From: Nereocystis luetkeana
Lineage: Eukaryota; Sar; Phaeophyceae; Laminariales; Laminariaceae
NCBI GenBank assembly: GCA_031213475.1
Contig: JARUPZ010000027.1
Span: forward strand, 3,156,569-3,220,568
Direction of reading: 5' to 3'
DNA length: 64,000 nucleotides
Under the pieces are notes generated by a model. That model was not told where the DNA came from. It saw only the letters and a list, made by a program, of their open reading frames with translations, and ran no database searches. Positions 7,494 to 63,717 of this stretch are shown here, one piece after another. Within the stretch, counting starts at the first letter, position 1; each line of letters starts with the position of its first letter. The position numbers were made by a program, and so were the translations under genes.

Positions 7494-10400
7494 ATGGCTC
7501 AGCGAGGTGGAGATGACGAGCTCGCCGACAGGTTGGGGGGGATAAGCCTGGAGTCGGTGTCAGCCGGCGAGGGCAAGTCTCCCATTGGTCCCGCGGGCTT
7601 AATTCACAAGGTAAGGAACGTTACACCCCCCCGTGTCTGCTCGGCTGCTGCTCAGAGACGCGTCCATTAGTCCATCTGGTACCTGGTAGGCTTCCGTTGA
7701 GCGCCCGCTCGTCCTAAACTGGCGTATTTCCGCAACGGCCGACCCAATTACTCGTACCACAAGGACTCGGACGCCATCAAGCTTTTTGTTGGCCAAATAC
7801 CAAAGCACATGGAGGAAGAGGACTTGAGGCCGGTTTTCGAGGAGTTTGGGGAGATCTTCGATTTAGCAGTCATCCGGGACAAGATTTCCGGCCTTCACCG
7901 CGGTGAGAATGCGTGTCCACATCCGACATCCCCGTCGGAACCCTCTCCGTAACGTGTCAGGGGCGCCGTGCTTTGCCGTGTCTCATCAGCTCGTTCGTGT
8001 GGACGCTGAAAAATATCATCTTTTCTCCTGATGATCTCGAGATGATTCTTCGTCAATCGTAGTCAATCGTAAGATGTTTTTGTTGAGCAGTCAGTGGCAA
8101 AGCGGCAACCAGTCAGCCACCTTATATTTCTTCTCGACTCCGTGTGGTGATTGTGGTGTTTTGAGTCGACAATCGTTCAATACATATTCAGTCCGCTCTT
8201 GCTGTGAGTTGCTGAGTTTCTTCTCGTTCCCTCTATGCTGCTTTTTTTTTCTTGCCGAGCTGTCGAGACGAAACGGCTTTGTTCGCCGTCGAAGTACGTA
8301 GTTGTTTAAGGTCGGAAGTTGACAGCGGGACTGTCGGAGTTGATGCTGTGGTTGCTGTTCGAGCTGCAACGTCGTTGCAACCCCTCGATTCCGGCGGCAC
8401 GCGGCGGCATACGGCTACCCCCCCTGACCTCCTGTTTTTCGTTCGGTTCCGGCGAGAACGATATTCGAGCTTTTACTCTAGGTGTGGAATTTGACGGGCA
8501 TTACAATTGCGCCGCATCACGTCTCTGAAGTTTTGATCATTGATGGTGTACTCCATGTGTTCCTCTCGCGTGTCGCGCAGGGTGCGCATTCCTGACGTAC
8601 TGTGCACGGGCGTCGGCAGATGCTGCGATCGCAGCACTACACGGCCAGCGGAGGTTAGACCGGGTGAGATATTATCATATTTGAGTGTTTTTTAGGAAGA
8701 TTTGCTTCGCGGCCCGCAGCGATGGCATGATAGCGCTATTATTAATAGTACTTACCAGGTACTCAGCAATTCTTTCACTCGAAACCCATCAGGTTACAAT
8801 CAACGATCTTTGGATCATAAACCAGATATGCTTGGTATATCTCGACAGCCTCGCTCGTAACTACAGTAGGGGCGATTCTTGGGTACCTATTTTTGCTTGA
8901 GAGTGGACAGCACTGACGCGCGCCTTCGAGAGTCTTGTCGGGGCGCGGTAAACGTCAAATGTACCTTCGCAGCGGGCTTGTTAGCTTGGATCGGCGGGGT
9001 GTTTTTCGAGCACCGTTCTTCGAGGTTGGACTTTCAGTACTTACAACGAGCCCTCGTATCATATACCTGGTACCTGGTACCATGTTATTAGCTGTGTGTT
9101 GGTGCATGCAAGCTCCCAAGCAATCTTTTGTTGGATGGTCATGTGGGATGTGGGTCTCTCACTGATCACCAAAACTCGGCTCGAGTAAAGTAACGGATGT
9201 CGGCGCTTCTCATTCGCCGTAGTCTTTCCGCTGACACGCCAGCTTTCGATATTTCATCCCTGCCTGCAGGTTGAATAGCCGTGCAATGCAACTGTTGTTC
9301 TCGCACCGTCCTATTTACAGTAAGTAGTACTCCAGCATTTACTATTTACGGATTCACAGCAGTATATATGTGCTCCCGTTCTGCGCTGACTGCAAATTAA
9401 TATGTTTGTCCGCGAGCTGAGCTGTCGCTTTGTTTCAAGTTTTTGGTCCACCTCACGGGAGTCTTACCCACTTTTTTTGTAACTGCCATCGTGCATCGGG
9501 TGTGTGGCTCTCTCGTTTGTCGCCCTGGAACCGGAACGTTGTGGATATTATAGGGGCAAAACCCGCTGCAGGTGCGGCCGGCGGAAGGCCAGGCAGAGCA
9601 GGAGAACAAACTGTTCGTCGGCATGGCGCCGAAGTCAGCCAATGAGGACGAGATTCGCGCCGTTTTTGCGCCGTACGGCACACTTCGCGAGATTCACGTC
9701 ATCCGCAACCAGGACGGCACGAACAAGGGCTGCGCGTTTGTGAAGTACACGACACGCCAGAGTGCTCTCGATGCCATCGAAGCTCTTCACGAGCAGTACA
9801 CGATGCAAGGTGGACCGCGTCCGCTTGTAGTCAAGTTTGCGGACAACAAGCGTGGAACCCAGGCCGCGGCAGGTCGCCTCGGCGCTCTAATCGGCTCACC
9901 AGGCCGTCACGGCGGTAGCCCCCACGCAGAATCGAGCAGCTGGATGGGTCACCCAGGAGGAGGAGGGGGAGGAGGAGGAGGAGGGGGGGGGGGAGCGGGG
10001 CAGAATGCAGGATATGCGTACGCGATGCCTGCGCCACCGATATCCCCCCACATGATGGGTGGCATGGGGTACGGGATGCCCTACTCGGGCGCTCAAGCAC
10101 CCGGTGCCCCGGCTCAAGGAAGCTACGTCTACTATCCCTACGGTGCGCCAGGATACCCACCCCAGCCAAGTGGGCAGTATCACTCGGGCCCGCCGAGCCC
10201 AGCGCGGGGAGGCGGAGGCTACGGCGGAGGGGGGCACCCGCGCTCCCCATCCGGGTCGGAAAGCCGCCATAGATCGCGTGGCATGTATGACAGCGAGCCT
10301 GTCGGGGGCGGGGGCGCTTCGCGGCCTGCCGAAGGCCCACCGGGGGCGAACCTGTTCATTTACCACCTGCCCCAAGATCTTTCGGACGCCGACTTGGCCA

Positions 10401-62500: not shown

Positions 62501-63717
62501 CAATCCTATGCGAGAATGAAGGAATTCGGGCAAAAATCGACAATTCTTGATTGACACCATTCACAACCCGGACAGAGAGATCATGATCTATCTACAGTAT
62601 CTATCTATCTATCTATCTATCTATCTATCTACTGTAGACCTCTAATAGGTAACCTGCAGTTCTGAGGCGCTGTACAGATCCAACTCAGGAAGCATGTCCT
62701 AGATCACGCAGATTACATGGCTCCCACCTGGCAACACGAACTAGGCCATGGATCATACAGATAATACAGAGAATACAGATCATTAATCTATCTGCCCTGA
62801 AAGATCTAGATCAACATCATCATCAAGTAGGAATCGATGATATGTTCGAGGTGGGAATTCAATGCTGCGCGGGGGGGGCGCGGTCACGGCAGTGCGTCGT
62901 CCAAGTTGTTTAACCACGTGTACTATTATTATGTTAGACTGCAAAAATGGCCCCACACTAATTCCCTATAAACGTGCGCTTCGAAATTGACGGGACGGTT
63001 TCCACCCATATATACCGTATTAAAGTTCATTTGTTTTTGATGGTAACGTATTCAGAGTACTACCTGGTATCAAAGAGTAGAACATGCCGACTACGTTTAG
63101 TACAGCAATACGAGTAGCAGTAGTAGCAGTAGTAGTAGTAGTAGTAGTAGCAGTAGTATTAATAGTAGTAGTAGTAGTAGTAAGTAGTATTAATAGTACT
63201 AGTTTTAGTAGTAGTAGTAGTAGTAGTAGTAGTAGTAGTAGCAGCAGTAGTAGTAGTAGTAGTAGTAGTAGTAGAAGTATTACGGGGGGCCATAGTTAAC
63301 AGGACCAAATATTCTTAGTAAAAATGGTTAAACATAAAGGTTTTTATGTATACCATAGGTCCTGTTAACTATGGTCCCCCGTAATAGTAGCAGTAGCAGT
63401 ATTAGTAGTACTAATAGTAATAGTACTGTAGTTTTATTAGTAGTAGTACTATTAATAGTACTAGTAGTACTACTAGTAGTAGTACCAGGCAGTATGGTAA
63501 TCCGTGAGACAAACCGAGCGACGATGTCTGGGACTTTCTGCACCTGCTTCCAGATGGTCTCCCGGAGGCAGTCGGCCTGCACGAACTGCGTCAACCTCGC
63601 GATGTCCGCCAGCTCTTCGAAGAACGCCGCCCCCTTAGCCGGGTCGACGGAGCACAGCTCTCGCACGAGGTACACCGCCCCGTCGCTGAACTCCCAGGGC
63701 TCGCTGGCTCGCGTTAC
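59568..63717 (-). CDS. 3' part of a helical-repeat (HEAT/ARM-like) protein gene
   Basis: Exons on the - strand: 63717-63544 (acceptor CGGCAG, donor GTGCAG), 60896-60696 (acceptor ATCAG, donor GTGACC) and probably 59660-59568 (acceptor TTCAAG, stop TGA). All three are phase 0. The exons read EFSDGAVYLVRELC, FFEELADIARLTQF, CLRETIWKQ; then LPAMGEAVGKKLFKRHLDVF, LKPLFDTLARITT, FIGPSIFRGRLSDSQRE; then IMDSQVRTEMPAVPCGG to WATMS. The amphipathic helix pairs fit an alpha-solenoid scaffold, and the composition is GC-rich at third positions. The exact family was not recognised, so no function is assigned. The 5' exons lie beyond the right edge. The third exon is the least certain. Introns carry MITE, family-5 and AGT repeats. 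Confidence 0.6.
60910..60985. repeat. Tandem 38-bp duplication beside a splice acceptor
   Basis: ACCATTTTGCACGACACAAC plus its following 18 bases occurs twice in a row, starting 13 bp upstream (on the gene's strand) of the 60896 acceptor. A related phrase (GATCACACCGCACCATGACA) occurs at about 61147. Confidence 0.75.
61204..61255. mobile_element. MITE family 1, partial copy 8
   Basis: CAACCCGCTCAGAACTGCAC and GGGGACA match the left arm; no right arm. Confidence 0.4.
61385..62095 (+). repeat. Family-5 repeats with G runs, multiple starts
   Basis: Four G-run junctions (61398, 61451, 61526, 61603). Two of these runs lead straight into GTACTC, as does the GTGTACTC start at 61874. The last is a full-order copy: GACCCTCGCATCCCTACAAT, TTGCTTGCACCAAGC-like and TACCAAGAACCGCTTTAGAG. 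All lie in the intron of the helical-repeat gene. Confidence 0.7.
62096..63104. other. Intronic stretch of the helical-repeat gene
   Basis: No coding sequence recognised; contains a short (ATCT)n tract and one TACCTGGTA word at 63062. Confidence 0.35.
62598..62632. repeat. (ATCT)n microsatellite
   Basis: About eight units, bounded by an inverted pair CTACAGTA / TACTGTAG. Confidence 0.85.
63105..63278. repeat. (AGT)n array left of a MITE
   Basis: Nearly pure AGT units with two TATTAATA words (63158 and 63189) inside the array. Confidence 0.85.
63279..63387. mobile_element. MITE family 2, copy G
   Basis: TA-TTACGGGGGGCCATAGTTAA at the left, TTAACTATGGTCCCCCGTAA-TA at the right; interior AAAGGTTTTTATGTATACCAT. 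Flanked on both sides by AGT arrays. Confidence 0.9.
63388..63487. repeat. (AGT)n array right of a MITE
   Basis: AGT/AGC/ATT units with another TATTAATA word near 63449. Confidence 0.8.

Follow-up and report, generated by a model that had tools for sequence, protein, structure and literature searches.

A recurrent palindrome in Nereocystis luetkeana DNA as the probable excision scar of a TA-inserting MITE family

Introduction

Why does one exact palindrome, TATTAATA, recur so often in a single stretch of the Nereocystis luetkeana genome? The stretch analysed (the window; 64,000 nucleotides of contig JARUPZ010000027.1, assembly GCA_031213475.1, positions 3,156,569 to 3,220,568) holds the word 27 times, and an earlier reading of the sequence alone proposed that this word is the footprint of a departed miniature inverted-repeat transposable element (MITE). 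We conclude, at a probability of roughly 0.9, that TATTAATA is the excision scar of a TA-inserting family of 105 nt, here called MITE-2, or of relatives with the same ends. The word is inserted into TA, the same TA is found empty, full and scarred in paralogous repeats, word and element share a target preference, and scars occur in tandem and in a form that resembles nesting. Counts of cut-and-paste transposons normally rest on the surviving copies, and excisions are difficult to detect. With a scar this long and distinctive, a single assembly shows how many excisions there are per extant copy, which targets are preferred, how the ends were repaired and where events were nested.

Word counts

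The genome comprises 465 Mb in 1,987 contigs. A comparison sample of 200 kb (20 stretches of 10 kb, from contigs C1-C20) and the window together form the 264 kb referred to below. The window count was compared with 100 dinucleotide shuffles and genome-wide counts with those of the reversed word. The sequence-only reading had estimated about 27 exact words; recounting gave exactly 27, spanning 8740-63457, with some of its coordinates shifted by one. It also expected an excess over dinucleotide composition, and the excess is large: shuffled windows average 1.12 words and never hold more than 5 (27 was reached in 0 of 100), and the genome holds 93,112 copies versus 10,689 of the reversed word, an excess of 82,423. 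The window is richer in the word than average, since the 200 kb sample contains just 52.

Ranked by count over second-order Markov expectation, TATTAATA is first among palindromic 8-mers of the window and 20th among all 8-mers, outranked mostly by simple-repeat words. In a census of TA-X-TA words across the 264 kb, TTAA ranks fourth (79 vs 1.9 expected) and TACCWGGTA, treated below, first (120 vs 2.6), with simple-repeat words between them. The window sites, none assigned to a strand, are as follows; each was found as an exact word unless another basis is given.

8740..8747, TATTAATA
13494..13501, TATTAATA
13976..13983, TATTAATA
14602..14609, TATTAATA
15946..15953, TATTAATA
17447..17454, TATTAATA
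20526..20539, apparently nested scar TATTATTAATAATA, holding TATTAATA at 20529-20536 (TA in paralogues)
20602..20609, TATTAATA, weak empty relative only (exact word and alignment)
21316..21323, TATTAATA adjoining an (AAT)n microsatellite, weak case
27472..27479, TATTAATA
29846..29853, TATTAATA scar within a family-1 MITE copy (TA in the copy near 12224)
30028..30035, TATTAATA
30700..30707, TATTAATA
31106..31113, TATTAATA
33640..33647, TATTAATA directly left of a MITE-2 copy
39396..39403, TATTAATA
39483..39490, TATTAATA
47608..47615, TATTAATA
48062..48069, TATTAATA
48685..48692, TATTAATA
55190..55197, TATTAATA, weak empty relative only (exact word and alignment)
55944..55951, TATTAATA
56991..56998, TATTAATA scar within a repeat unit (TA in the unit near 57140)
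60602..60609, TATTAATA
63157..63164, TATTAATA within a TAG-rich repeat, weak case
63188..63195, TATTAATA within a TAG-rich repeat, weak case
63450..63457, TATTAATA within a TAG-rich repeat, weak case

Gain of the word at TA

Empty relatives of the 27 window sites were sought throughout the 264 kb, and three sites (20526, 29846 and 56991) have a clear one. Direct reading gives ACAAAC-TA-TTAATA-CTTGAAA at 29846-29853, in a family-1 MITE, versus AAAAC-TA-CTTGAAA near 12224, and TAC-TA-TTAATA-GTTTTAATGTAAGGG at 56991-56998, in a minisatellite, versus TAC-TA-GTTTTAATGTAAGGG near 57140. The longer form TATTATTAATAATA at 20526-20539 faces TA in its paralogues (repeat-copy alignments). All three had been singled out by the sequence-only reading and hold up. 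Weak, poorly aligned empty relatives exist for 20602 and 55190.

Indels between repeat copies were also listed without choosing words (1,639 alignments across the 264 kb). Among 30 non-simple 6-nt indels, TATTAATA appears in six entries at five sites, and TACCWGGTA in four of 15 7-nt indels. The sample contains six insertion sites of TATTAATA (L012:3786, L013:4568, L014:7837, L016:7098, L019:6282 and L022:3924), to which window site 20526 can be added. At the insertion point the relatives have an exact TA for L012, L013, L016 and L019, and one changed base for L014 and L022. Alignment places the word in the minority at the L013 site (versus copies in L011, L014, L027 and the window) and at the L016 site (versus copies in L017, L020, L023, L025 and the window). 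Since most copies have TA wherever several can be aligned, the polarity is that of a gain; the three window sites likewise show the word as a 6-nt gain at TA.

The MITE-2 family

The second MITE family of the sequence-only reading is real: inverted-repeat scans and BLAST delimit an element of 105 nt with ends TTACGGGGG...CCCCCGTAA and TA on either flank. It has the TA target site duplication and terminal inverted repeats of the Tc1/mariner superfamily, along with the footprint typical of that group, a few terminal bases between two TAs, as seen between paralogous copies. The 264 kb contain 19 copies or fragments (hand count from 36 BLAST rows); for one of these (L019:9283-9390), both the window and L020 contain empty paralogues. 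The window copies are:

3501..3605, plus strand, 105 nt, TA on both sides (inverted-repeat scan, BLAST)
27624..27727, minus strand, one damaged end (BLAST)
33651..33755, plus strand, 105 nt, TA on both sides (inverted-repeat scan, BLAST)
34192..34436, plus strand, split by another repeat, with a TACCTGGTA insertion near 34373 (alignment, BLAST)
36862..36965, plus strand, diverged (BLAST)
37218..37328, minus strand, with a TACCTGGTA insertion near 37307 (alignment, BLAST)
63280..63384, plus strand, 105 nt, TA on both sides (inverted-repeat scan, BLAST)

Genome-wide, the MITE-2 end plus TA (TATTACGGGGG) occurs 57,235 times, versus 201 for the reversed word. Among 100 ends listed, 66 form 33 proper pairs, 20 of these pairs being 98 nt apart. 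This suggests perhaps 43,000 copies, a rough estimate for which the pairs come from one contig and unpaired ends are assumed to have a mutated partner. Set against the genome-wide excess of TATTAATA, scars outnumber extant MITE-2 copies roughly two to one.

Empty, full and scarred sites

Two TA sites in unrelated repeats were followed genome-wide. Site A is the TA in CCATTTTTAC-TA-ACAATATTTGG inside MITE-2 itself, where altered places were recognised by TATTA at that point. At least 6,689 exact empty copies are present, with 223 altered places versus none for the reversed control pattern. Among 100 of the 223 listed, 55 are canonical scars (TATTAATA with the expected right flank) and 15 are full nested MITE-2 copies (in 11 location clusters). 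Six others have TATTAATA with another flank (including one tandem triple and one single-base flank variant), two have a family-1 MITE, which targets TTAA, inside the scar, and 22 have other forms: five TATTATA and three TATTAAATA, both with recognisable flanks, three TATTAATG, one TATTATTAATA, and the rest substituted or hard to assign. Scars with identical flanks (34 of the 100 listed) correspond to about 1% of copies. The TATTAATA rows differ widely in their downstream variants, and thus do not all derive from one scarred parent.

Site B is a TA in an unrelated repeat bearing a reverse transcriptase (RT match in L019), for which all 19 TATTA-altered places were listed. Nine are full MITE-2 copies, three begin with TATTAATA (one with the expected flank, one variant and one with another flank), four carry TATTATTAATAATA and three are other forms. 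The four TATTATTAATAATA rows are probably one event in duplicate contigs. If a second scar formed at the TA in the middle of an earlier one, TATTATTAATAATA would result, and the window case at 20526 has the same form. The sequence-only reading called for alternation of TATTAATA with TA or MITE; such alternation at a single TA is seen in each of two unrelated repeats, among paralogous copies of one genome.

Target preference and alternative origins

The three bases preceding TA are T, A and C at frequencies of.68,.79 and.61 in 28 MITE-2 termini and of.58,.61 and.48 at TATTAATA (158 flanks of 79 sites), versus.31,.31 and.20 for all TA and.43,.48 and.23 for other TATTA words. Scored with the MITE-2 matrix, the mean log-odds is +0.63 for TATTAATA, -0.75 for other TATTA words, -0.83 for TACWGTA, -1.63 for all TA and -2.55 for TACCWGGTA, which has a different preference (A or G at -1, A at -6). 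Because TATTAATA shares the insertion-site preference of MITE-2, the scar is tied to the element independently of the element's ends. Together with the alternation of states in two unrelated repeats, this supports the match of scar to element on which the sequence-only reading was built.

Any element with TTA...TAA ends would leave the identical word, there are about two scars per extant MITE-2 copy, and profile searches and end scans of loci L029-L042 yielded no autonomous MITE-2 partner. An origin from some other TA-inserting family with such ends is nevertheless improbable, given that full MITE-2 copies occupy the very TA sites that carry scars in two repeats and that the target preferences agree. 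Moreover, MITE-2 is the sole multi-copy, TA-flanked, TTA-ended inverted-repeat family in two scans of the 264 kb, leaving aside family 1, whose target is TTAA, and isolated weak pairs. Slippage in AT microsatellites, or a deletion that removes TTAATA from between two direct repeats of TA, could be invoked for the seven of 79 sites in the 264 kb that lie in simple-repeat context, and these may have a different origin. The other 72 lie outside simple repeats, shuffles yield about one word per window, and the TA majority among multiple repeat copies makes the change a gain, so we reject this explanation as very unlikely. A regulatory or structural palindrome under selection would account for a strong genome-wide excess of one exact palindrome, yet the word is found inserted at TA in MITEs, in the RT-bearing repeat and in further repeats, it has minor variants and it occurs in tandem. 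Selection would predict neither the target preference of a MITE nor the presence of TA in copies that are empty; we dismiss it as the least credible of the three. An over-represented exact palindrome thus need not be a regulatory motif.

Probable excision mechanism and transposase search

Under this explanation, insertion of MITE-2 duplicates TA, with TAC-TA-GTA as the preferred target. On excision, a putative TA-inserting transposase would cut the element out, and the host would join the flanks with a few bases from each element end, mostly TTAA, between the TA copies. Overhangs of 3 nt at the 3' ends (TTA and TTA) may anneal via their self-complementary TA to give TA-TTAA-TA, and alternative joins would give TA-TTA-TA and TA-TTAAA-TA. 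In the TA-X-TA census, TTAAA/TTTAA occurs between TAs 14 times versus 1.3 expected, and three cases are among the site A rows listed. A 2-nt stagger would leave no third end base. The two-base rule of Tc1, from which the sequence-only reading derived the word, therefore probably does not describe the excision: the third end base in minor scars, TA-TTAAA-TA for example, fits a putative 3-nt stagger better. According to PMC7827188, Sleeping Beauty/mariner transposases cut 3 nt inside on one strand, producing 3-nt 3' overhangs, and end joining leaves a small footprint.

The sequence-only reading had also asked for an autonomous element with MITE-2 ends and a DDE/D transposase. None was found with three profiles and end scans of loci L029-L042, which cover 15 of 28 DDE_1 places. 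The DDE_3 (Tc1-type) profile gave no match at E<=0.001 with 30 candidates scored (a control matched in three of 14 genomes), and Transposase_1 gave none, with no match for its control either. The DDE_1 profile identified the 28 places just mentioned; the 15 covered include two in L037, and L035 and L036 are near-identical across an aligned 5,982 nt. Where ends are visible, they show CAGTAC: L039 and L042 have it at both ends, L040 and L041 at one, and L035 has a related repeat. With a DDE_1 match and inverted repeats next to TA, the elements in L039, L042, L040 and L041 are pogo-like. The clearest is:

L039:910-2883, pogo-like (DDE_1) element with CAGTAC ends, TA at 908-909 and 2884-2885

The footprint predicted from CAG ends, TACWGTA, is about three-fold more frequent than its reverse (162,074 vs 54,742), a modest excess to which simple repeats may contribute.

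Points against the MITE-2 origin

Besides the lack of a transposase-bearing element with TTAC ends in these searches, several results weigh against MITE-2 as the source. In the 264 kb, 22 of the 27 window sites lack an empty partner, and two more have only a weak one. A stricter recount of 30 6-nt indel sites gave CGAC at six versus TTAA at five (we read the CGAC cases as variation inside one repeat family). The simple-repeat words CTAC and ATAA, and also CAGCAG, are in large excess in the TA-X-TA census. The MITE-2 training termini score +2.09, so TATTAATA matches the matrix only partly, and the T/A preference is partly present in other TATTA words, the clearest difference being C before TA (.48 vs.23). 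TTA between TAs could consist of 2+1 bases, which leaves the 3-nt stagger dependent mainly on TTAAA. The comparison of scarred with full sites is one of paralogues rather than alleles, and a single scarred parent may have passed its scar on to some of the MITE copies. Finally, the patterns for sites A and B require a TATTA prefix, so that a joint carrying a deletion, filler or a TAA-type end goes uncounted.

A probable second scar class and other TA-flanked words

TACCWGGTA occurs 182,395 times genome-wide, versus 1,744 for the reversed word. Comparison of repeat copies shows it inserted at TA; it also lies inside MITE-2 copies, is often in tandem, and behaves like the scar of a different element. 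The stricter indel recount gave CCAGG at two of 16 7-nt sites. Its donor was not found at the MITE-internal TA (among 100 of 226 places listed) or by inverted-repeat scans of the 264 kb. Two window examples, with no strand assigned, are:

41685..41700, TACCAGGTA insertion (about 41690), second scar class; most aligned paralogues have TA (alignment)
42270..42290, TACCAGATACCTGGTA near 42275, apparently two successive second-class scars; most aligned paralogues have TA (alignment)

In the open PMC literature (subscription papers and preprints being outside this scope) no paper matched TATTAATA or TACCAGGTA as whole words, and among 15 of 46 papers listed for TACCTGGTA or excision footprints one contained TACCTGGTA, its title pointing to an unrelated subject.

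In the 264 kb, TA-CAGCAG-TA / TA-CTGCTG-TA occurs 31 times versus 0.9 expected and is possibly repeat-derived. A TA-flanked inverted repeat with CCG ends lies at L018:1263-3299, and TACCGGTA (16 vs 4.4 expected) and TACCGTA/TACGGTA (71 vs 36.5) might be scars of this element.

Comparison with known elements

Tc1 of Caenorhabditis leaves the footprint TACATGTA, which like the scar described here has four bases between two TAs, two per end; the minor scars that suggest a 3-nt stagger and the absence of DDE_3 matches at E<=0.001 set the present case apart. The Sleeping Beauty/mariner footprint word is CWG, whereas the scar here is TTAA and its population very large. Terminal repeats of Stowaway MITEs begin with CTCCC, unlike the TTACGGGGG ends of MITE-2. 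Sleeping Beauty/mariner elements share with MITE-2 the TA target, its duplication and the few terminal bases left between TAs (PMC7827188). Stowaway in Triticeae is likewise a TA-duplicating MITE that leaves short end fragments, and one case of reinsertion at the same TA is described (PMC1925063). That study, in which one of the footprints is TACTCC...AGTA, concerns a single intron, in contrast to the scars found genome-wide in N. luetkeana. When DNA transposons leave sites in rice, diagnostic sequence changes likewise remain; of 94 excisions in PMC4423477, eight were perfect, and deletions or filler marked the majority. In N. luetkeana one exact word dominates the recognised scars, though deletion scars would escape recognition, and this dominance therefore partly reflects the method. 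Footprints of TA transposons are thus already known in kind (PMC1925063, PMC4423477); unusual here are their number, the dominance of one scar and their readability from one assembly.

Genome-wide significance

The genome most likely carries roughly 80,000 TATTAATA scars, giving a countable, mappable record of where transposons have left. A broader view, which we consider doubtful, is that the main surviving record of TA-transposon activity consists of exits: about 80,000 TTAA scars and as many as about 180,000 CCWGG scars, in excess of the MITE-2 copies still present. These would stem from end joining that is unusually uniform in its use of microhomology, with a possible link to the transposase or a host programme. 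The target landscape would have been remade as well: about one-eighth of TTAA tetranucleotides lie in scar words (79/626, or 12.6%, in the 264 kb), and TTAA-targeting MITEs sometimes land there.

Neighbouring elements and other features

Family-1 MITEs have TTAA at both ends and CCC...GGG ends, and are piggyBac-like by these features. The copy at L022:8653-8749 sits in the TTAA of TATTAATA, giving TATTAA[...]TTAATA; two similar cases are among the 100 of 223 site A places listed. A preference of this family for scars is unsupported: TA precedes TTAA in 15 of 100 termini (by eye, among 3,008) versus 134 of 482 TTAA sites (27.8%; 264 kb, same start restriction). A 1,026-nt insertion beside TATTAATA at L028:405-1432, with ends GAGTGTTTG...CAAACACTC and lying in a tandem repeat, is a different element and not MITE-2.

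The window also contains a tandem array of about 1 kb with an 8-nt unit (GCAAGCAA in one register; about 58060-59150). Two open frames for RNA-binding (RRM) proteins, similar in wording, lie at 9554-10489 and 51182-52393.

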